Positions 3,250-16,680 of a stretch of DNA of 64,000 bases are shown in pieces. The notes below the pieces were generated by a model. It did not search any database, was not told the DNA's origin, and worked only from the letters and a program-made list of their open reading frames with translations. Source of the stretch: Apostichopus japonicus. Lineage: Eukaryota > Echinodermata > Holothuroidea > Aspidochirotida > Stichopodidae. How positions within the stretch are numbered: position 1 is the stretch's first letter; each line of letters starts with the position of its first letter. The DNA is taken from positions 8,939,001 to 9,003,000 of the forward strand of contig NC_092568.1 of NCBI RefSeq assembly GCF_037975245.1, given 5' to 3'. The translations under genes were made by a program, and so were the position numbers.

Positions 3250-3717
3250 TTAAGAATCAGACCGACCTTTTACCTCAGTATCAGATGCCAAGCGATATCG
3301 ATGATTCGGTTTACCCTTCATACGTGGACATCCCTCAGATTGCGGTTGTGTTACGCTGAATGGTAACTGATCCGTAGTTGCACATTGTTCGTTCAAAGTG
3401 AATTTTTTACTCACCGAACGTGGACCTAAGTTGGTTATGCATGGTAAAATATATTTGAGCGTTGAGAACCGTCAAACTAAAGGCTGGTATCCAGAACTGG
3501 ATCGGAAAAGCGGTCACTGCTAGCACAAAGTACCTACCGTAACCAGGAGAACAGTTGGTCTGTACCTTAAGACCATTGACGTTAAAAATGGGCCAGACTG
3601 TGTCGATTGGCATCCAGATACAAAAAGATAAGAACCAACAAAAGACATTAATTCGAATTGCGACTTTCTTGCTTCGGTTTCTGTAATAGCTGAAGGGTGC
3701 AATGGTAGCGTAGAATC
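3250..3717 (-). pseudogene. rhodopsin-family GPCR pseudogene, 3' half (TM4-TM5, start of ICL3)
   Basis: Read on the minus strand from 3717, the frame gives FYATIAPFSYYRNRSKKVA, then a TM4 with the family tryptophan (FCWFLSFCIWMPIDTVW), an extracellular loop with a cysteine (VQTNCSPGYG), and TM5 with its proline (FPIQFWIPAFSLTVL). The frame stops after QLRSTFGE. A one-base shift there reopens a polar frame (RSVSKKFTLNEQ...) to a stop at 3250, so the loop carries a frameshift. No TM6 or TM7 follows. The missing upstream part (TM1-TM3, ending DRLY) lies at 16304-16680, beyond the 12.6-kb insert. It resembles the intact receptor at 46263-47465. It is a relic, not a working gene. Confidence 0.85.
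3710..3717. repeat. outer 8-bp duplication, left copy (GTAGAATC)
   Basis: It matches 16304-16311 (GTACAATC) at 7 of 8 positions. On the minus strand the two are GATTCTAC and GATTGTAC. Both read as the same position of the receptor coding sequence, straddling the R and F/L-Y codons of the DRY motif, so the duplication is confirmed independently by gene continuity. Confidence 0.85.
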
Positions 3718-4308
3718 CAGTAACGGACTGGCCACACGGGTATTTGGACATTGCCCGGTGGGCCGGTGGCCCGGTGGGCCGGTGGGCTGGGGAGCCTGGA
3801 AGAAATTACAGCCCATTTTCGCAGAAGTTATTAGAATACAGACGGGATGTGTAGAAATATATTTGGAACTGTCGGAATCAGCTCATGAAATCACCATGTT
3901 AGTTAGTCTGTTAGTTCGTAACAAAAGAACGTGCTATTAGCAACCCGTCCGTGCTAATGGACTTTATTTAGGTTTATTGCAATTTTTTGAAGCATGTTGT
4001 CACACAATGCTTGAAAAACTAAATAAAATCCAGTCTAAAACATATATTGTTGTCTATATTCGTTTACGTTTTTATCTTTCCTCAGTTTAATCGCGTGTTG
4101 CTTCTGGAAAATTATTTTTGGGTCATTTTTAAAGGATTATGGTTACCTACAAAATTGAGAAATATAGCACCATTTTGCATCTTAAACTTCAAAAAACTTA
4201 GACCCCTCCCCCAGGACGGCGATCACTATGTAAGTAGCATATCAATGAATAATGGGCCGGTCTAGGTGGGAAATGCCCGGGCCGCTTTTAAGACCCAGTC
4301 CGCCCCTG
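3718..4308 (+). mobile_element. hAT-like non-autonomous element, copy E1
   Basis: It begins CAGTAACGGACTGG and ends CCAGTCCGCCCCTG, giving roughly 14-bp terminal inverted repeats with the CAG...CTG ends common in hAT elements. It is closely similar along its length to 15704-16303, including the (GGGCCGGT)n stretch near the left end and the CCAGGACGGCGATCACTAT block near the right end. It has no transposase frame, so any mobility would need a transposase in trans. Its two 8-bp flanks do not match each other; each matches a flank of the other copy. Confidence 0.85.
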
Positions 4309-4316
4309 CTTACGGG
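4309..4316. repeat. inner 8-bp duplication, left copy (CTTACGGG)
   Basis: It immediately follows E1 and matches 15696-15703 (CTTAAGGG), which immediately precedes E2, at 7 of 8 positions. Confidence 0.75.
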
Positions 4317-4530
4317 TGTAGGGAGGTTGATGCAATATTCATCAACCATCAATTTCTCTCTTATATTTGCAATCGTTATGAGCAGTCTCAAAGCAAAAGT
4401 TTTTTTTTTTTAGGGGGATGGAGGTGGGGTGAGTGTGGCAGGGGGGGGGGGTTCAACATTACATAATAACATAAAGTCCAGCACAAAATCTCAAGCGTTC
4501 GAAGCATTTCCGTTTCATAGTAATGACTTT

Positions 4531-4784
4531 GGAGTGTTAGCTCAGTGTTTAACGCCGGTGCCTTTCAATCATAAGGTCCCCGGTTTGAGTCACTCCCAGG
4601 TTAATGTATGTCGTCCAGTTACAGAGTTGTTGACAATTAACAATTTATAATCTTGGACGTTAAATATGAATGTAAGAGACTGACTTCGGTCAGCTTGCGG
4701 CTTTGATAAGCCAATGAGGCTGCTTCGCGAGTTCCTGCTTGCAGGAGGATCTAATATACATACATGCATACACACATACATACA
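4531..4784 (+). mobile_element. tRNA-derived SINE, full copy
   Basis: The head (4531-4596) is tRNA-like. GGAGTG at the start can pair with CACTCC at 4591-4596; an A-box-like TTAGCTCAGTG and a B-box-like GGTTTGAGTCAC are present. A ~190-bp body follows, containing GTCAGCTTGCGGC and TTGCAGGAGGATCTAA, and ends in a CATA/ATAC-type tail. A shorter relative lies at 7911-8037. The body is not tRNA-like, so this is a SINE rather than a tRNA gene. Confidence 0.75.
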
Positions 4785-5104
4785 AACTTTGCAGCACACT
4801 TTTCTGCACGGGTTTGACCAATTCTATATATAACCTACTACAATCGCGTGCCGGTTATTCACCTTCAACATGAACGACGGAGAAGGGGGGGGGGGGGCTG
4901 AGGTGTGGATTTATCCGTCATTTTTAGTTTTGCCATGTCTAAACATGTATAATAATAACCCAGGCAGATGTTATCATCGAAAATTCGAGTCAATGTTACA
5001 AGTATATATGACTGCATAGCACATTGGTATACCAACGTTAAAGCAATGCCCGGTTTCATTTCTACGAGGAAATTGACATTCTGTGTTTTGTCATAGGCCT
5101 ACCA

Positions 5105-5360
5105 AATGTCCGTGGAAATTTTGGATTTTTCCTTAAAATTTTTGAAAAGGTCGAAAGTTTGAGGGAAACACCGAAATCATTCAACAGTTTATTGGACCTT
5201 TCGTTATGCCCTCATACACTCTCCTTCTTTATATAGTACCACCTAACTATGTAATTATCCCGAATTTTTAAGAAAAGTTGATATTTTGAGATTAAAATAG
5301 TCTGTTGACCATTTTGAGATAAAACGTTACAATTTCTAAGGAAATACATCGAAATATTGG
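5105..5360. repeat. degenerate GTCGAA/TTTTGAGAT-type repeat, locus 1
   Basis: Loosely repeated words such as GGTCGAAAGTTTGAGG, GATATTTTGAGATTAAAATAG and CCATTTTGAGATAAAA recur about every 20-30 bp. The same word set recurs at 43405-43870 and, on the other strand, at 58845-59150. It is too degenerate to call a clean minisatellite. Confidence 0.5.
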
Positions 5361-6550
5361 AAGATTTAAATTTGTGTCATGAGTGTGTCATTTTGTCAGG
5401 TCATGATGACAAAGTGTTGCCAGGAGGTGGAAAAACGGCTCTTCCCTTAGATATTTTATTTTTCTCTATTAATTTTTCCTTCTTTCATTTCAAGCTGAAT
5501 TTACACTTGACACTGAAGAATGGAAGCATAACTTATTACGTACATGCTCAGAAATTCAACATGTTCGATTTACCATTATTTTGTGAAGCCCAACTTTATA
5601 ACGGGAAATAGGTAGCGTACTGCAATAAATAATAAGTCTATAAAAATCAATGCAAATGATTTGTTCAAGCTATCACCTCTGTCTGTCAAAGAACTGTTAA
5701 GTTGCTATTTCCCTGCAGGGTGGAATTAACATGTTCTTACCTTTTGGGGGTATGTCGTTCATCTCTATCACATAGACACTTGATAATGGTTGGGTGTGCT
5801 TTTGCTACCTAAACTAAGACTCTTCTGAGAAGGGTATGTAAATATATTATTAGAGAATTATCCTGTACACAAGCATTAACAGATGCCAGTAGCAGCGGCG
5901 AATTAGGTATAGGAGCCTGACATTTTATGGAAACAGCCAGATGCGATTGAAGGATCTTGTGGAGGAGTCGACATTCCAGCCCTCTCTCCTTGCGCACGCC
6001 ATTGGATTTTAGTGTGGTTGCCAGATAATGGTACCGCTTGGAACCACATCGTGACCGGGTTTGCGTTACTTTTACCAAACAGCGTAATACAAAAACATAA
6101 GTGGATCTATCCACTTGTACAAATAACGAATTGTAAACGAATTTAATTTAATATTTTGCTCATTTGGAACCCACGAAAGGGGTTTCTTATATAATCGTAC
6201 CTGTTCCTACCGAGGGGATGCCATTACAAGGTGCTTTTTCCTTGAAGAGGTCGAGTTTGATTTCCAAGAATGCGAGAAAATATGCTACCAAAGTTGATTT
6301 TGCAGCAATTGATAATAATGAAAGCAAATAAGCCTCACGGACCTACCTCAAGTAAGAATAAATTAATGTCAATATGCTTAATGTCTTTTCGTCGTTATAT
6401 ATACATTAATTGAATGTTTGATACGTGTTACCGGAAGCCGATTAAAGCGCTAAATGTTCACTGTGAATTATCGACTGCTCATATAGCGTAAACATCTTGT
6501 CGTATAGATTTGAGAAGTATGAAAGCAAATGCACCACTTGAATGGCATTA
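5361..6550. other. stretch without a recognisable gene
   Basis: A minus-strand open frame of about 100 codons (5809-6114) contains a basic segment (TRSRCGSKRYHYLATTLKS). I recognise no family and see no splice context for it, so it is not called as a gene; it could be a fragment of a repeat. Nothing else stands out. Confidence 0.4.
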
Positions 6551-6560
6551 ATCTCTATCT

Positions 6561-6745
6561 CCTCGGCCTTTTGGCTAAGATCATGTGTAGTATCTGTTCT
6601 TTTCCAGGAATGGTGATGCACACCTGACGATGATCACACAGTCACAGTCCCGATGCAAGGGGACTTGGGTTAGAAGCGGATCAGTCGTTCAGTAGTTTGG
6701 TTTTCGTGCCCAGGTTCTTTCCTGGGCGACTTTTTCTTAAAAAGT
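6561..6745 (+). mobile_element. U2 snRNA-headed SINE-like retroposon, copy a
   Basis: The first ~43 bases (6561-6603) match nearly base for base the start of spliceosomal U2 snRNA: CTCGGCCTTTTGGCTAAGAT, then GTGTAGTATCTGTTCTT, including the branch-site recognition sequence. After that the sequence leaves U2 and has no U2 Sm site or stem-loops III/IV. The remaining ~140 bp is shared with 7037-7210 and ends with a CCCAGG-loop-CCTGGG hairpin. The element is flanked by an exact 10-bp duplication, ATCTCTATCT at 6551-6560 and 6746-6755, which points to retroposition. It is not a working U2 gene. Confidence 0.8.
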
Positions 6746-7036
6746 ATCTCTATCTATTGTTATAAACTTGTTTCGAATAAGGAAGATGTGGTTCGTCAAT
6801 GAGTATCGATAAAGTCCATTAGTGCGTTACGTGGTCGACATACCGGGGACTACTTGGTATTCCAGAAATGGCAGTTATCTTCATCTGTTCATTGTTCATC
6901 AAAACGCAGTTCATTGACTTATGAAACAAATAGAATAAAGGACAACTAATCGGATAACATTCTTCCGAGATCAAACTAGTTTTATCCTTAATCGTGTACA
7001 ACTAACAGATCGACCGAAGAGTTGAAGGCATCACCG

Positions 7037-7210
7037 AAGATCATATGTAGTATCTGTTCCCTTTCGAGGAGATTTGTGATACACACCTGACGATGATCAC
7101 ACAGTCACCGTAGTCTCAATGCAAGGGGACTGGGGTTGAGAGCGGATCAGACGTTCGGTGCTTTGGTTTTCATGCCCATGTTCATTCCTGGGTGACTTTT
7201 CTTAAAAGTA
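7037..7210 (+). mobile_element. U2-headed SINE-like retroposon, copy b (5'-truncated)
   Basis: It starts inside the U2 part (AAGATCATATGTAGTATCTG) and continues in parallel with copy a: CACACCTGACGATGATCAC, ATGCAAGGGGACT, AGAGCGGATCAG, GGTTTTCATGCCCATGTT and CTTAAAAGTATC. Loss of the 5' end compared with copy a fits target-primed reverse transcription. Flanking duplication is weak (GGCAT on both sides). Confidence 0.7.
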
Positions 7211-7910
7211 TCCCCGGCATTGAATCATGGGAGAATGATCGACCGATATATTTTGCTGTAACTTGATAACTCTCTTAAATAATAAGGCAGAATTTTAGTC
7301 TTGATATATTATAATACAAAGAAAACAGACAACTTTGAGTCCAATAATGTTTCTGTAGCTATTCCAGTATTTTTCAAGAGATGTTTCGTTAAAGATACTT
7401 ATTTCTGTAATATTCGTTTAGGCTAACTTGATGGTGACGTCGGCTCCTCATTGCAGTTCTTATAGTTAATGTTGATCCGTTGGTTTTGAGGTCAACCAGA
7501 ATACGTTCGTTAAACTTCATATTAGCAACAGAGCACCCTTGGATGGCATTCAACACCATTTGTCATTAATAAAATTTGTAATAATTATAAACATGTCATT
7601 TGAGACCATGTAATCTTAATTTCTCCCATTGAGTTGTGTAGTGCAACCGAGGAACTATAGTCTGATGGGCTGTGTAATAAAGTAAAAGGTCCAGTCACTA
7701 TAACTAGTGAACCTCAACTGTTTAAAGGGTCATTCCAAAAACAAACAAAAAATAAGTAATTGTGTTATAGGAATACAATCCTAGCTAGACAGAGAGCAGT
7801 GGTTTTTAACGGCAACGGTCCACGGCATATCAAAGTTAATTTTGTTCCTGAAGTTATCAAAACACAAAACGGGGTATTTGGCCCATTACATAAAAATACA
7901 TTCCACCTTA
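7211..7910. other. gene-free stretch
   Basis: No exon, RNA gene or clear repeat is seen between the second U2-headed element and the truncated SINE. Confidence 0.5.
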
Positions 7911-8037
7911 GGAGTGTTAGCTCAGTGGTTAACGCCGGTACCTTCCAATCATAAGGGCTTTGGTAAGCCAATGAGGCTTCTTCGCGAGTTCCTGCTTGCA
8001 GGAGGATCTAAAATACATACATACATACATACATACC
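7911..8037 (+). mobile_element. tRNA-derived SINE, internally deleted copy
   Basis: It matches the start of the SINE at 4531 (GGAGTGTTAGCTCAGTGGTT through CAATCATAAG), then jumps to the 3' body (GGTAAGCCAATGAGGC, TTGCAGGAGGATCTAA) and ends in an ATAC repeat. About 120 bp, including the B box, is absent, so this copy should not be transcribed from its own promoter. Confidence 0.75.
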
Positions 8038-8078
8038 TTCAGAGTGACAAAAAAAAACGGCTTTAAAAGAAAGAATTC

Positions 8079-8645
8079 GATGGCGCTAGTTTGAAACAGG
8101 GTGTTTTTTAATATAAAATAATTATATGGCTCTTAAAGGCATCCGTATATTCACTTTCAGGAGAATAACGCCTCATTAGGCCACGTATTCAGTGGACATG
8201 GGCTGCAAGCATGCCGGTCGCAGAGATGTCACCACCTCTGGCCAAAGGCAAGGATTCACGCACGCCACCTAGTACGCTTCTGGTCGATTTGACCGACCCT
8301 CTGCGCATCCTCCCGGGTTCTTTTGCGACAACAAGGGAGACATGGTACGGGATCCTAGGCCACAAAAAAGCACCATGCCACAACCTCAGGTATTATCGCC
8401 AGAGGCCTGTCTTGAACCCTAGCCACGATTTACACGACCGACAAGGAATGAGTCTTTCGTCACCCTCTATAGCATCGGCCACCACATCAGCTAGTAAATT
8501 AGATAGTTGAATTAATATATCAAGACTTCAGCGTGGACTGCTGAAAGAGAAAAAGAATTTTAAACGTGTATAATCATTGATGGAGTCGAACTCAGTTCAT
8601 CAGGTTACCAGTCCACTGCTCTACCCACTGAACCATTTGACGAGT
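8079..8645 (-). mobile_element. long tRNA-related SINE-like repeat, copy 1
   Basis: It matches 42527-43095 over its whole length, from GATGGCGCTAGTTT at the left to a tRNA-like end at the right. Shared blocks include AGGATTCACGCACGC, GGTCGATTTGACCGACCCTC and GGGATCCTAGGCCACAAAA. On the minus strand the right end (about 8574-8645) reads like a tRNA: A-box-like TGGTTCAGTGGGTAGAGC and B-box-like GAGTTCGACTCC. The head therefore lies at the right and the element runs on the minus strand. Open frames inside it are incidental. Confidence 0.7.
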
Positions 8646-10834
8646 TAACTTTCAATCAGCTAAAATTGGTATTGTTGGTTGGATACAATCAATTTGTAAC
8701 AGTGAACGACACTGCCTTCAACGAAATCACTCTCTATTCATCCTGTTTTACTCTCATTAGAACAAAGATCTGAATATCTTTATTTACAAGAAGCTCACGC
8801 TTGTGTTTGTTTACATTGCAGCAAGTAGTAAGAATGTCGTTTCCTTCCAAGACGTAAATGTACAATAGGCTTATGCCACGATACTATCGATGACTTCGAA
8901 GCAAGCAATAACAGAAAAACGGATTCCGTGAAATCGTCTTATTCACAAAAGGTTGCTTAAGATAATGCTCGCAAGAGAGTTCTTGCTGTAAGTTGTGTCC
9001 TTTAACAACTATATTCTATGCAGACGATCATGAACTGGAGTAAGCCTGAAATTTCAACAAACAATACATATTCACATTTCAGTAGCGTTTTGAATGAGGA
9101 AGGGACAATGCTTAGTAAGTCAAACACGTTAACTTCATGTAACTAATCTTATTTAGGGATCTGAATGGCTGGAAATAGCACAGTTATTCGAAACCCGAAA
9201 GAGGATTCATAGGTTTTGAGTTTATGCAAGTAGATTTGGGAAACACGGGGATCGGGAATTCGTCAACTACAAGACTTTGTTTAGTGCGCAGCCTGCTTGA
9301 TGTACTTATTGATCCTCTGAAACTGCGGAATTTGCGTGGATAGGTCCCCCCCCCCTCCCCGCCCCTAAATGACTGTGCTCCACACATATACAGAAGTGTG
9401 TATTTAGCTTAATACACAATGTTAGAACCATCTTTATAAATATCAAATTTTGATCTAAGCATCCAACTTGGATGACAAGGTTGGGACGGTGACGAGGATG
9501 GGGTTAGGGTGTTTTTATAGCTGTTATATGTGCAATAAAAGTTAACACTATGAGTTGGTCGACTACATCAACAGTTATAATCACTCATATCAAATATAAG
9601 TTATAGAAAATCATTCTTGTAAGAAATTCCAACTGAAAATAAACACTCTATCCAATCATAAAAGAGCTTTACATGCTGCTTGATTCTTCAACTGATTTAA
9701 AGTTAATGACATTTGATCGAAAGAAAGTGAATAATACAACCGTGACCCACCTCTTTTCAATCTTTCAATCGCATGTACTATGCGATTGGCAGGGGCTCAC
9801 CAATAGGGGATTCTCCATAGCAGGGATTCTCCCATTGTGCGAATGAGTGAGGGTTAAACTAATGTACGTAACCATGGTATTAGGAACTGGTATTACCATT
9901 GGGTAACAAGCAAATGTGGCACGCTCACTCCAATGCATGATAAGCAATTATTGGCTTAATTGTTATCAACTTGAATCGTACTATTGTTCCAAATTAGTTG
10001 ACAAAGAAATAGGGAATTCTTGCAGCTAAGATTACAATTGAAATTTAACAGATAGTAGTATACTTTGCATATATAAGACATGATCCCGCCAGAAAGAATC
10101 TTTGATAATATTACCGTCTCGTTTCAATCTGCCCGACGTTTCATTGAGTGACGTCACACATTAAATTGTTATCAGATACCTTATTTTTTTGAGTAACCTT
10201 ACAATGTGTTTCTGTCAGGATGTTTAGAATTCAACGCAAAAAAAAAACAAATGCAAACAAACTTTTATAATCAGAAAATCAGTTTTCATATCTGGGCTTA
10301 ATTTGACATAATTTCGTTACGTAACTAACCTGGCTGTACATTTCGAAGCGGTTATAGATAGATCACGGAAGTCGAGTCGTCTCCAAGTTATTTGCTAAAA
10401 AACATCTCAATAACATACCAAACGATTTTGAATAACAGTTGGGAGAGGTGAGATTGGCAGACGTTCTCTAATATCTTCTCCCCCAAACACACCCCTCCCT
10501 CTTCCCCTTCCCCGCCCCCCCCCCCCTCTCTCCCTGTAAAACTATTCATGTCAGTAGGCAAAGGTATGTCTTAAATGTGAACTAACGGAAATATGGTTGT
10601 TGTTGATTGGTTGCTTTCTCTGAGATATAATGACAGCTTGTATCATTCTGGCCCCTTCTTCTGCTCAGAAAATTGCTCGTTTCCGAAATCAGACATTGAT
10701 AAAGGGACTTAGTACCACCCCAGGGAACTGGTAATGACTTCAATACTTTCGCCGAGTTGATAAAAACAACAGCAAATTGTATATCGTACTTATGTCAATA
10801 TTTAGGACGTATGTAATGTTACTATCATCAATTT
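8646..10834. other. gene-free stretch
   Basis: No recognisable exon is seen. It contains pyrimidine-rich tracts (poly-C near 9348-9365 and 10498-10530) and AT-rich sequence leading into the LINE. Confidence 0.5.
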
Positions 10835-13800
10835 TTATAGGGACCATATTGGTAGATGCATCATAGCAGATATTTCGATTGAGCATACTCATTTAACTCT
10901 TGTCTGTAGCTATGGTCCAAATCTCGATAATCCTTCTTTCTTCAAGAGTATTACGAGCCGATTACATAGCTTCAATGGTCAGTCTATTATATGGGGTGGC
11001 GACTTCAACTTTGTTTTTAATCTTAGTATATTGATAAGCAAGGGGGGCAGCCCAGAACAAACTTCCACGCCAGAGATGAGTGCCTTTTAGGAATGGCAGA
11101 ACACGATCTCATTGATATTTGGAGAGAGAGAAATCCGTTGAATAAGTCCTTTTCTTGGCATTCGTCTGTTGGTAATATTTTTTGTAGGCTGGATTTCTTC
11201 CTTATATCTCGGTCGTTGGTTAACAAGGTTACTAATATTTGCTTCCAACCCCCTATCCAGTCGGACCATTCTTTAGTTGTTTTAGCGCTGTCATTATCTG
11301 ACGTCCCACGGGGAAGAGGCTTTTGGAAGTTCAATAATTCTCTGTTGCCTGACCCGGCGTATGTGGAGGCCACAAATATTTTTTTGACAATTTCATTGAT
11401 AGCACATTTCATCTTGACCCTGCTTCTCGCTGGGAGTATATAAAATACAAAATTCGTTGTCACACTATCTCTTACAGTAAACGGAAGGCATATATTTCAC
11501 GTAAGGAAGAACATGAAATGCTCATGTTGATTTCCGACCTTGAGCAAAAAATAGTCATTGACACCTCCGCCGAAATACGCCGCCAACTGCATGAAGCCAA
11601 GGATAAACTTAATCTTTTGTATCGTAATAAGTTGGAGGGCATTATTGTTCGGTCGAGAGCGAAATGGGTAGAGTCAGGGGAGAAGAATACCAAATATTTT
11701 TTAAACCTGGAACGTCGTAATAAAACTAACAACACTATAAGCAAACTCGTTGTTAACAATCATCATATTTCTGGTAACGAGAATATATACTGTTCGAAAT
11801 GAAAAGGTTCTATGAAAGTTTGTATTCTAGGGTTTTTTGCGACATAGGAACAGTATTCAGTAATATTCCTGTTTTTAATCCCGATGGAAACGATTTCAGT
11901 CATTGTGATGGCGATTTAACCCCCGAAGAGTGTTATAATACTTTGTTATCATTGTCTAATGGTAAATCTCCTGGTTCAGATGGTTTTTTCCACTGATTTT
12001 TATAAGTTTTTCTGGCCTACCATCGGTGACCTTGTTGTGGGTTCACTCAATTATGCTTTTCGCAACAAAGCACTGTCTTGTGAACAGAGCAGGGGTATCA
12101 CCACTTTGATTTGTAAGCAAGATAAAGACCCACGTTATCTCAACAATTACAGACCCATTACATTGTTAAATACGGATTACAAGATAGGAGCTAAATCCTT
12201 GGCGAATAGATTAAAAAGTATTATTCCACACATAATTGGTGAACATCAAACTGGGTTCATCTCAACTTAGATTTATTGGCGAGAACATTCGTTTCATACT
12301 AGATCTAATAGATTACACTTCCGACACGCACAGGCCGGGTCTTCTGCTTTTCATTGACTTTGAAAAGGCTTTCGACTCCATGGACTGGAATATCATTGAT
12401 AGATCTCTGGTCTATTTTAATATTGGGCATACTTTTCGTCGTTGGGTTTCCACTTTGTATGCGAATAGTGTTTCCTGTGTTTGTAACAATGGGTATTCCA
12501 CTGGTTTCTTTCCAGTAAAGAGAGGCGTTAGGCAAGGCTGCCCACTGAGTCCATATCTATTCATAATTTGTGCTGAAATACTATCCAGGTCTATTTTAAA
12601 TAACAATAATATAGGAGGGATCAATGTTTATGATAAGTGTTTCAAAATGTTACAATATGCTGACGATACTGTAATTTTGACTGATGGGACCAGGGAATCA
12701 ATTATTGAGCTAAACAATACTTTTAATGTGTTTAAGTTAGCCTCTGGACTCAAAATAAATTATGGAAAGACAAAGGTTTTTCCCAGTAGGCGATATGATC
12801 ATGACCCCCCTTGATTTCTTAGTGATTTTAATCTCAGTATTAGCAAGGACCCTATTCATTTCCTTGGTATTAGTTTCACACATAATGGAGACGATCTTTT
12901 CAGATTGAATTACATTCAGAAGCTCTCACGACTGAAAAGCCAGCTTAGGATTTGGAGCTCAAGGGATTTAACCCCTATTGGCAGGAACGTCGTGGTTAAA
13001 TCTTTTGCTATGAGTCAATTGGTGTATTTATTCCAAGTTCTCCCCAATCCCCCTAAGTATTTCATGAAAGAGATACAGGACATTATATTTGACTTTGTTT
13101 GGCGTGGTGCTCCAGATAAAGTGAGGCGTGTAACTATGATCAATACTGTTGTTCGTGGTGGCTTGAAAATTATTCATGTTGACACTTTTGCCAATGCTCT
13201 GAAGACTTCGTGGATTAAGCGTTATTGTGATCCTACAGCTATAGGATTCTGGAAAATATTTTTCGATTATCACTTGACCCCCTTTGGAAAACAATTCTTA
13301 TTTCGTTGTAATTTTAAAGGTACCGATATCGCCCATATTAGGAATACTTTCATTAAACAGATTTGTACAGCCTGGGGGGTTGCCAATTTCGCTATTCCGA
13401 CTAGCTATTTTGGTGATCAGATCATTTGGAATAACTCACTCATTAGAATTGACAATACAACAATCTATGATCGGAGGTTTCATTTGGCCGGGGTTACTTA
13501 TGTGAAAGACCTATTAAATGAGGAGGGGTCATTCTTTAATTATGTTCAATTCATTCGTAAATACAATATCCCTAGTTTTCCCTTCACTCGGCTGACAGGC
13601 ATTATTTCCGCTATTCCCCGTGATTGGAAACGGTAGATGCAGGAAACAGTCGATCGTTCTAGTGAAGATTCGGTTATCGATCGTTTATCCAGTATCACAA
13701 GTGTTTCGAGGCTGATATACCCACGTTTAATCAGACATATCTCACTTCCGCCACGTGCATGTGTAAAGTGGAATGCCTCCTTCACATTAACGGAAGATTA

Positions 13801-14829
13801 GATTTTTACACCGGGTATTGGGTACAAATAAGTTATTGTACTATATGAATAAAGTCGACTCACCGCTCTGCATTTTTTGCCATATTGAGACAGAGAGCGT
13901 GGAACAGCTGTTTTGGAGTTGCCATATTACATCTAGTTTTTTGCTAGATGCAGAACAGTTATTCTTCGGACGACAATTTATTTTGACAAATCGTGATTTC
14001 TTTTTTGGTTATAATTTGGTCCTGGACCAACCTATGAACTTCTTCATTTTGCATTGTAAATATTATCTGTATATCTGTAAGCAGAATGAAACTCTTCCTT
14101 CAGTTAATGACTTTTATTATAGAATGAAGTTTGTTATGAAGGTGGAGTCTTGTATAAATTCGAAAAATGGTTGTACAAAGAAAGCGAAGACAAGATTCAG
14201 TATGTTGAAAGATCTGTTTAATCATATCCCCGCAATATTAGGGAACTGATATTTTACATATGAACAAATATGCTAGATATGCTACTAATATGTACACTTT
14301 TAGAATATCTGTTTAATACAAGTTACATTTTGCTTATTATTTGTTTATAATTGTATATATGTATAACCTATGTTATTTATTAATACTAATAGTTATAATA
14401 ATATTAATAATAAAAATTATAAACATTTAATAATTATAATAAAAATATTAATAAAAATAATAATAATAATTATTATGATAATATGTAACATATTAATATT
14501 TGTGTATGCATGTATATATACATATATATTTGAATGTATATATATTTAGGTATGAATGTACATATATATGTGTATATCTATGTATTTATGTATGTGTACT
14601 GGTATTTATTTGTTCACATATATTTATAAAAGAAGCGAGGGGGGAAAATACTCAGTTCGGAAACATTTTTTTCTCATTATGTAAATAGTTGCTTTGTAAC
14701 ATTGAGCTGACATAACAATTTAGTAATCAGAATTGTAAATAATGTAAAAATTGTAATTGTAATAATAATTTAAACAAGTGTGTACCATATGTTATGATAC
14801 TTTTGAATAAATGAGATTGGAAAAAAAAG
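10835..14829 (+). mobile_element. decayed L1/Tx1-like LINE (endonuclease, reverse transcriptase, zinc knuckle)
   Basis: Successive open segments in different frames give one LINE ORF2. First comes an AP-type endonuclease part (WGGDFNF at 10992-11012, later QSDHSLVVLAL). Then comes reverse transcriptase with GKSPGSDGF, YRPITLLNTDYKI, LLFIDFEKAFDSMDW, GVRQGCPLSPYLF, catalytic YADD at 12656-12667 and GLKINYGKTKVF. A CxxC...C zf-RVT type knuckle (LCIFC...FWSC) lies near 13866-13925. An AT-rich 3' region ends in AATAAATGAGATTGG plus an A-tract at about 14829. The endonuclease N-terminus is missing. At least seven frame changes or stops mean it cannot encode an active enzyme. It lies within the composite insert. 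Confidence 0.9.
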
Positions 14830-14945
14830 ACCTAAACAGGAATGTAGCGAGCTACGGGTTGGAGCTATTCTAATCCATATTTACTTTTATTGCTTGTTGT
14901 TCTATTCATTCCTAGTTTAAAAATATTCACTAAAAAAAAAATTTG

Positions 14946-14946
<1 letters not shown>

Positions 14947-14993
<47 letters not shown>

Positions 14994-15021
14994 GAGAGAG
15001 AGCGCGCGCGAAAGAGAGAGG
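14947..15021. repeat. (TA)n microsatellite followed by (AG)n/(CG)n
   Basis: About 40 bp of alternating TA changes directly into AG, then CG, then AG dinucleotides. This is simple sequence. Confidence 0.9.
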
Positions 15022-15695
15022 ATAAATAGGAATATTCGTTCAACCTGTTAACTGATCCTCAAATACAGATGTGGTTTATTGTTTCTTTCTTTGCATTACT
15101 GCGATTTTCTCTGCTTTGCCTGGACTCAGTCTGCGGACATAATGTTGCCCAGAGGCTATACGAATAAAGCTGGTTGGGTGAATTGCTCCATTTGATGTAT
15201 TTTTAATCCAGCTACAAGTATACTACGAACTGATTTAATAACCATAATGAAATTGACCCAAAGTAGAATTCACAACCGTGAATTTGATATAGACTCGAAG
15301 AGTAACCACAATCTGTCACAAATATATTAAGTATTTGTAAGAATTCGAAGTGAATATACCTGGAAATAATTATTTGAATGATTGGTGGGCCATACAAACA
15401 TATATGTAAGGGAGGATTTAACCTAAATTTTTAGCATGTGTTATGCCAGTATTCCACATAATTTCAAAATAAAGAATTTACAATGAAAAGAAGAAAAAAA
15501 ATATTTAGGACGTATCATAACCTCGTGTTAATACACAACTGACGAAAGCGTAGGCAATAAAAAGCAAATGGTGTGGGTGTTTGGTATTTTATATATAGTA
15601 GATAACTCCCGCGCATCATATTTCCATACGATAATAATAAACTATGGAATTGCGGAGTAAATTTCACCATGGCTTACACAAGGGATCGAACATTA
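15022..15695. other. gene-free stretch
   Basis: No exon or repeat family is recognised between the microsatellite and element E2. Confidence 0.5.
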
Positions 15696-15703
15696 CTTAA
15701 GGG
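15696..15703. repeat. inner 8-bp duplication, right copy (CTTAAGGG)
   Basis: It immediately precedes E2 and matches the 8-mer immediately after E1 at 7 of 8 positions. Confidence 0.75.
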
Positions 15704-16303
15704 CAGTGGCGGACTGGCCACACGGGCATTTGGGCAGTGCCCTGTGGGCCGGTGGGCCGGTGGGCAAGGTAGCCTGGTAAAAAGTACAGCCCATTTTCAC
15801 ATGAGTTAATAGAATACAGACGGGCTGTGTAGAAATATATTTTTAACTGTGGGAATCCGCTCATGAAATCACCATGTTAGTTAGTCTGTGTAGTTCGTAA
15901 CAAAAAACGTGCTATTAGCAACCCTTCCGTGCTAATTTATTATATTTAGGTTTTTGTCAATTTTTTTGCAAGCATGGTGTCACAAAATGCTTGAAAAACT
16001 AAATGAAATCCAGTCTAAAACATATACTTTTGTTTATATTCGTTAACGTTTTTATCTTTCCTCAGTTTAATCGCGTGTTGCTTCTGGAAATTATTTTTGG
16101 GTCATTTTTAAAGGATTATTGTTAACTACAAAATTGAGAAATATAGCACCATTTTGCATCTTAGCTTCACAAACTTTCAATAAAGAGGGGGAAGCCCCCT
16201 CCCCCAGGACGGCGATCACTATATGTATGTAGCATATCAATGAATAATAACCCGGTCTAGGTGGAAAATACCCGGGCCGGTTTTAAGACCCAGTCCGCCT
16301 CTG
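15704..16303 (+). mobile_element. hAT-like non-autonomous element, copy E2
   Basis: It begins CAGTGGCGGACTGG and ends CCAGTCCGCCTCTG. It lies in the same orientation as 3718-4308 and is similar throughout, with a few small insertions such as extra bases around GGGGGAAGCCCCCT. It has no coding capacity. Its right flank (GTACAATC) is receptor coding sequence; its left flank belongs to the cargo. Confidence 0.85.
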
Positions 16304-16311
16304 GTACAATC
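16304..16311. repeat. outer 8-bp duplication, right copy (GTACAATC)
   Basis: It pairs with 3710-3717. On the minus strand it is the last part of the codons for D-R-L-Y in the receptor pseudogene. Confidence 0.85.
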
Positions 16312-16680
16312 GATCAAAGCCAATGGCTACTATTGAAAATATAGATACATTAGTTAGTGAATGGTTCACACCTTGTGAAATCTTGCAACCATATAGAAAC
16401 CGAAAAACGGCCCTAAAGTTTCGACGACAGAGTGAACAGGAAGCACAATGATTCCATCAAGAAGATCGGCAAGAACCAAACTAATGATGTCATAGTTAAT
16501 GTACGTTCTAAGACGCTTTTCTTCATTAATTAAAGGACAGTTAAGTTAAACCGTTGATCGCAATAGTTGCCACGGTCAGGGAGTACCAAGGCAATGCATT
16601 GACGAAGGTTAAATCTTAGTTCTTTCTCAAAAGAGAAGTTGTACGGTTCCGCAGTAGTGATTTGTGTCTCATCAGTGATC
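16304..16680 (-). pseudogene. rhodopsin-family GPCR pseudogene, 5' half (N-terminus to TM3/DRLY)
   Basis: The minus strand gives a TM1-like segment (WYSLTVATIAINGLT), then after a frame change INEEKRLRTYINYDIISLVL and ADLLDGIIVLPVHSVV (TM2 with the LxxAD motif), then after another change CKISQGVNHSLTNVSIF and SIVAIGFDRLY (TM3). The TM3 cysteine lies 25 residues before the DRY arginine, the usual class A spacing for the conserved disulphide. At least two frameshifts and stops are present. The coding sequence stops exactly at the E2 boundary and resumes at 3717. The N-terminal exon limit is not defined. Confidence 0.8.

Follow-up and report, generated by a model that had tools for sequence, protein, structure and literature searches.

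Bacterial composite transposons carry two whole insertion sequences at their ends and mobilise the DNA in between, and the miniature inverted-repeat transposable elements (MITEs) of the hAT superfamily are short, numerous elements with CAG...CTG terminal inverted repeats that generate 8-bp duplications. Here we describe a 12.6-kb insert (3710..16311) in a 64,000-nucleotide stretch of the genome of the holothuroid Apostichopus japonicus, hereafter the window (NC_092568.1, labelled C8, positions 8939001-9003000, in the 671.6-Mb, 35-contig assembly GCF_037975245.1; other loci are likewise labelled by contig or by an L number). In this insert two hAT-like MITEs, E1 and E2, bound a cargo of 11.4 kb derived from a dispersed repeat, R. 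We think it probable that the insert represents a single copy of a macrotransposon, a composite DNA transposon which has complete hAT-like MITEs as its ends and which formed and moved in the way proposed below. E1 and E2 resemble hAT-superfamily MITEs in their small size, CAG...CTG ends, 8-bp duplications and high copy number, and differ from ordinary ones, which have no captured flanking DNA, in bounding a cargo. As in bacterial composite transposons, two whole short end elements would move the intervening DNA, but here the ends are MITEs of about 600 bp and the cargo consists of switched flanks.

The closest described structures come from maize. There, when the reversed ends of two Ac/Ds elements enter DNA that has yet to replicate, the elements and their flanks are re-replicated; repair then produces a Composite Insertion, in which an element is followed by one flank, a new junction, the other flank and an element, all inside an outer 8-bp duplication (PMC4270019). 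The re-replicated segments measure 4.8-18.9 kb, half of the sequenced joints arose by homologous recombination, and end-joined examples show microhomology of 4 bp, of 3 bp or none at all. Two Ac elements with the DNA between them can also excise and reinsert as a unit, as described for 10.3-kb and 28-kb macrotransposons near p1/p2 (PMC9910405). The A. japonicus insert shares with the Composite Insertions hAT ends on the outside, an 8-bp target duplication, switched donor flanks and a new junction, with segments of about 8 and 2.2 kb against the 4.8-18.9 kb of maize; it shares with the Ac macrotransposons that an 8-bp target duplication or footprint marks the site. In contrast to the maize Composite Insertions, which were new alleles recovered, along with reciprocal twins, in crosses that involved an active element, and to the maize macrotransposons, whose excision and reinsertion were documented, we are dealing with an old, dispersed, MITE-ended family, whose founding we reconstruct and whose movement we read from target duplications.

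The kind of structure is thus already known, and what is probably new is a MITE-ended composite that has turned into a dispersed family, in an animal. Literature searches showed no animal case of a macrotransposon or composite insertion, with subscription journals largely outside their coverage, which makes this no proof of absence. In a paper on the animal element Teratorn (PMC10175614), the word macrotransposon occurs in the reference list alone, within the title of a maize paper, and the literature on transposon composite insertion with re-replication concerned, by titles and abstract openings, maize and Arabidopsis. By means of a composite of this kind, short non-coding elements would be able to move kilobases of DNA, and the signature of the composite, crossed 8-mers together with a shared flank-flank joint, could be used to find such families in any genome.

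Crosswise 8-bp duplications around the insert

Both end elements are complete copies lying in the same orientation with approximately 87-90% identity: E1 forms the left end (3718..4308, plus strand, termini CAGTAACGGACTGG...CCAGTCCGCCCCTG), and E2 forms the right end (15704..16303, plus strand). The family has 14-bp inverted ends (CAGTGGCGGACTGG...CCAGTCCGCC.CTG), and the terminal inverted repeats, which start with CAG, match at 13/14 bases in E2 and at 11/14 in E1, as counted by eye. It is highly repeated, a 2-kb query containing E1 giving 3338 first-look candidates, the best 40 of which were scored.

The 8-mers that border the two MITEs pair crosswise. The one left of E1, GTAGAATC (3710..3717), agrees at 7/8 positions with the one right of E2, GTACAATC (16304..16311), and the one right of E1, CTTACGGG (4309..4316), agrees at 7/8 with the one left of E2, CTTAAGGG (15696..15703), while the own flanks of E1 and E2 match at just 1/8 and 2/8. 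Among random 8-mer pairs from the window, the frequency of a match at 7/8 or better is 9.1e-4, so that the chance of both crosswise pairs is about 1e-6, given independence. An earlier note on this DNA had described two direct hAT-like copies devoid of matching flanks of their own, with crossed 8-mers, and had called a chance match at both pairs very unlikely; both statements hold. Own duplications were also scored at 16 control loci, both E ends being recognised at 11. Each of the five simple copies with intact ends (L005, L007, L008, L071 and L072) is flanked by an 8-bp duplication of its own, matching at 7/8 or 8/8, and four copies that lack one sit at composite junctions (L002 and L003 at E1|R; L070 and L073 at R|E2). 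In L045 and L046, which are duplicates of each other, the left end is degraded and there is no 8-mer match. The E1/E2 family therefore has the 8-bp duplications and the CAG terminal inverted repeats of a hAT-like MITE.

The outer pair lies in an exon of a rhodopsin-type receptor (Pfam 7tm_1) encoded on the minus strand, whose 3′ part (FYATIAPF...) occupies 3413..3715 and whose part preceding the insertion (...VAIGFDRLY) was read from the flank at 16304..16369. With one 8-mer removed, the outer flanks give an in-frame receptor stretch on that strand, ...VAIGFDRLYATIAPFSYY..., and the joined peptide matches 7tm_1 at 1e-12, compared with 2.4e-7 for the left half alone. Because the flanks rejoin in frame and the score improves on joining, we place the composite in the receptor exon, with the outer pair as its target duplication, and the frame thereby confirms the outer pair independently, as the note had maintained. 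An apparent frameshift just upstream, judged by eye, suggests that the receptor is a pseudogene. A BLAST alignment of a C7 locus that seemingly ran into the receptor (16304-16340) was dismissed after the C7 flank had been read.

A dispersed repeat with switched arms

The cargo between the MITEs derives from R, which was found as a dispersed repeat by a genome search with the left edge of the cargo, the best 40 of 80 candidates being listed. In R copies, the sequence to the left of E2 (ending at 15703) often continues straight into the sequence from 4309, to the right of E1. Among the listed candidates, 33 copies cover this MITE site, of which 27 are empty (7 seen in a first comparison and 20 of 20 further ones fetched and read) and 6 are filled. 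An empty copy on C13 (L054) reads GGGATCGAACATTA-CTTACGGG-TGTAGGG, which is both composite flanks with the 8-mer present once. The E1|R junction (E|CTTACGGGTGTAGG) occurs at 6 loci, plus a partial seventh on C9, and the R|E2 junction, searched as a 27-mer, at 13 loci, with 0 matches for the control in either case. Given the empty copies, and the single 8-mer on C13, the inner pair is most readily understood as a duplication that arose when a single MITE inserted into one R copy, with CTTAAGGG as its left and CTTACGGG as its right copy; the suggestion that the inner pair was the duplication of one earlier element is in this way borne out. Two loci, L060 and L066, which a loose regular expression had flagged as E ends, were by eye both empty sites.

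R is non-coding in the frames searched, since nine reading frames, taken from a linear C15 copy and its right-hand flank, gave sub-cut-off Pfam matches alone (best 0.039). Several long MITE-free R copies lie on C15 at approximately 8.67-14.5 Mb; the pairs compared there show approximately 91-98% identity across their longer alignments, and in one of them the similarity extends for more than 15 kb.

Alignment of the cargo to the linear C13 copy showed that the two sides of R have changed places, the right side (C13 5305-13361, about 8.05 kb) coming before the left side (C13 3066-5312, about 2.25 kb). In the window, the right arm, which in linear R lies to the right of the MITE site, spans 4309..9929 (plus strand), and the left arm, delimited by alignment to other R copies, spans 9930..15703 (plus strand). 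The two meet at the joint CACGCTCACT|CCAATGCATG (9917..9949, plus strand), where they overlap by 1 bp, a T at 9929. Where the arms occur separately, CACGCTCACTTCATA follows the right one and GTAACTAAT precedes the left one. Because both arms run on beyond this point in non-composite copies (the left arm on C13 and C10, the right arm on C13 and C15), the joint is a new illegitimate fusion rather than a natural terminus of R. The donor flanks have thus traded places and meet at a novel joint, which the window, C7 and C11 have in common. The idea that R circularises itself and ends naturally at 10096/10097 was dropped, as C13 puts the joint at 9929 and the arms run on; 10096/10097 was also rejected as the joint, being instead a place where the window copy has lost about 115 bp still present in C7, C11 and C13.

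These features bear on the statement of the earlier note that each of its two proposed origins requires a donor that is circular or in tandem. That claim is not supported, as the cargo consists of the switched flanks of one donor element joined illegitimately over 1 bp, for which the maize-type route would suffice; on this comparison, the composite would need neither a circle nor a tandem array.

The composite at other loci

Genome-wide, the 33-mer across the joint has matches with up to 3 mismatches at 23 loci, 13 of them on C8, while the reversed-pattern control gave 0. A second arrangement of MITE-R-MITE with the same joint lies at C7:12659557-12668562 with AATACATC on either side, so that an outer 8-bp duplication surrounds element, cargo and element at both sites, at 7/8 in the window and 8/8 on C7. 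This C7 site has a duplicate, flanks included, at C7:9.44M; in C7a, E2 is retained but the left-arm edge and the initial bases of E2 have been lost.

The recurrence of the joint indicates that the insert is neither private to this locus nor an assembly error. An artefact, or a chance pairing of flanks, would have in its favour that E is so highly repeated, as repeats can misjoin assemblies; against this stand the 23 joint loci with their empty control, the perfect outer pair on C7, the joint improbability of the two 8-mer pairs, the restored receptor frame, and insertions of a long interspersed element (LINE) and of a sequence resembling a short interspersed element (SINE) that, among the copies aligned, are private to the window. 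We therefore regard artefact as scarcely credible, and as effectively refuted for the structure itself. The same data bear on the two origins offered in the note. The first, a circle that recombined with an element already present in the receptor, is not supported as a private event, since the C7 site shares the joint but has a different outer duplication, and further loci carry the joint as well. Of the second, the movement of an element-unit-element segment as a macrotransposon is upheld by C7 and by the recurrence of the joint; the tandem array that it was said to require is not.

Junctions and joints also occur near each other. Thirteen of the 23 joints have a same-strand R|E2 within 12 kb downstream, where uniform placement predicts about 2e-4 per joint, and six have an E1|R within 15 kb upstream. 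In a DNA search, R|E2 was present in 20 of the 40 rows scored (the best 40 of 359 candidates). The right end of E2 borders eight different flanks: that of the window, that of the C7 pair, and those of six more loci. At one of the six, C7:9.537M, E2 is followed by GTAGTAGA, and the same 8-mer precedes an E left end with 0 mismatches at C7:12.7607M. This GTAGTAGA|E-left pattern has 17 matches genome-wide, of which that at C7:12.7607M is the sole one with 0 mismatches and five on other chromosomes have 1; the reversed control gave 2. The C7:12.7607M match lies past a right-arm marker at an offset of about 3.2 Mb, as in the C7a/C7b pair. From this we infer a third insertion site, spread across two apparent collinear duplicates.

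Several composite loci are duplicates of one another, including a C11 pair and C8:18.77/18.90/18.92M, which have a common flank, so the number of independent insertions is below 23. Apparent large collinear duplications, at an offset of about 3.2 Mb, carry composites at C7 9.44-9.55M/12.66-12.76M and at C11 6.19M/9.44M.

Trees of three R segments, which took in the window, C7 and C9 throughout and C11 in one segment (with a midpoint root for drawing only), all separated the composite loci from the empty copies, with support of 97/94, 100/99 and 100/100. These trees are star-like, with end branches of 0.033-0.047, and so is the MITE tree, with a median end branch of 0.046. Together with the shared joint, the R trees say that the composite would go back to a single founder that spread at roughly the same time as the MITE itself. 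One pair of loci, L043 and L044 (C1:10137390-10152930, minus strand), forms an internally deleted composite in which the right arm is joined to 15607-15703|E2; there, about 36 bp of the left flank of the upstream MITE also lies beside the downstream one, resembling the outcome of gene conversion or template switching.

Proposed origin and later insertions

We propose that the composite arose in a maize-type way, on the strength of matching structural features. A single MITE would first have entered one copy of the non-coding repeat R, duplicating CTTACGGG, as its flanks and the empty sites indicate. Next, the MITE with about 8 kb of right-hand and about 2.2 kb of left-hand R would have been either copied or excised, its two sides changing places and becoming joined at their ends, to yield the observed order MITE, right arm, joint, left arm, MITE. 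The most likely route for this step would be alternative transposition during S phase, in which a hAT transposase uses the ends of two MITE copies, on sister chromatids or as neighbours, the flanks are re-replicated and the broken ends are closed by end joining. The unit would then have transposed whole through its outermost ends, creating new 8-bp duplications, in the receptor exon among other places; the target duplications of the window and of C7, and the apparent third site, point to this step. Last, the SINE-like insert and the LINE would have entered the window copy.

The main rival is a tandem duplication followed by macrotransposition, in which a stretch of about 10 kb of R with one MITE was duplicated by end joining or a replication error, and transposase then lifted MITE, unit and MITE with no re-replication. 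It would yield the identical joint, order and inner 8-mers, and the joint sequence does not tell it apart from re-replication. What appear to be duplications with a single E in each unit do exist, namely C3:20.642/20.653M with identical flanks, E2|GTTTGACC...GTTTGACC|E on C17 with 9 kb between, and the C8 trio with its common flank. Yet no tandem R-MITE-R array was apparent in BLAST maps of 11 R loci over 15-25 kb, and no donor was found in them. We consider this origin quite possible, though not probable.

A number of results weigh against transposition of the whole unit, as we propose it. At six complete E2 right ends, the genome was searched for the same 8-mer next to an E left end, with up to 3 mismatches. 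No partner left end lay nearby at C8:10.94M, C7:14.33M, C5:2.31M or C15:13.10M; on C17 a match with 1 mismatch lay 9 kb downstream, on the wrong side; and the one properly placed partner, that of C7:9.537M, is in an apparent duplicate. E1|R loci are far scarcer than joint loci, and exact E1|R and R|E2 junctions both surround a joint in the window only. Seven of the 20 R|E2 places found among the best 40 candidates had no joint within 12 kb upstream; three of these have an intact right end (C7:9.537M, C7:14.33M and C17), and the other four lie on C16 (19.19, 19.34, 19.51 and 20.00M). The partner tests and the joint-less places indicate that the left end is missing, decayed or different in most copies. 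The right end of E2 was seen at 7 of the 13 loci with the R|E2 27-mer (the window and six others); it did not appear in the 141-161 bases at the predicted place in L074, L076, L077, L078 and L082, where an indel could displace it, and at the C1 locus the final bases of E2 are missing. In addition, the star-like MITE sequences do not allow E1 and E2 to be demonstrated as siblings from one founder.

Derived MITE states, counted in 7 simple copies and 13 composite ends, clearly favour neither descent from a founder nor recombination with resident elements. In E1, the states common to loci number 10 for the inner half (3 without C9 and C16, which are inner-half-only copies) and 0 for the outer half, and this sharing in E1 tilts slightly towards an extrachromosomal circle. 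In such a scheme R with its MITE was excised, closed into a circle by end joining, and recombined with resident MITEs at several sites, the receptor included, which predicts crosswise 8-mers everywhere and a single joint. E2 shows the opposite trend, with 3 inner against 6 outer shared states, compared with 8 over the whole length in the simple-copy control. The circle would moreover call for repeated independent homologous integrations into diverged MITEs, and the structure, far from being private to one locus, recurs at the joint loci, with the composites grouping together in every R segment. We find it unlikely as a general account; it is possible chiefly at the founding step, as is the tandem duplication.

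A broader variant of our proposal is that composites have formed time and again in this genome, with MITEs repeatedly capturing and reshuffling flanks and spreading as macrotransposons, R being the successful case and C17 a second, independent founder. We put this forward tentatively and think it rather doubtful. The C17 locus (28380053-28389721, minus strand), where both GTTTGACC junctions are on the same strand, looks like either a tandem duplication or a second composite.

The window copy has been altered further, by a SINE-like insert and a LINE that we date later than the composite because they are absent from the other copies aligned there. The repeats at 4535-4785 and 7907-8041 are SINE-like, with tRNA-like promoter boxes, and a tRNA scan of these pieces gave 0 genes. 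The first of them, which lies in the right arm, is absent from 9 other R copies covering that spot, and overlapping alignments suggest that it is flanked by a duplication of about 9-10 bp. The left arm is broken by a LINE-bearing insertion (about 10790-15500) with no counterpart in the other R copies aligned. It contains degraded LINE-type reading frames at 10806..14249 (plus strand), of which 12236-12811 matches Pfam RVT_1 at 3e-26, and the LINE frames also match zf-RVT weakly.

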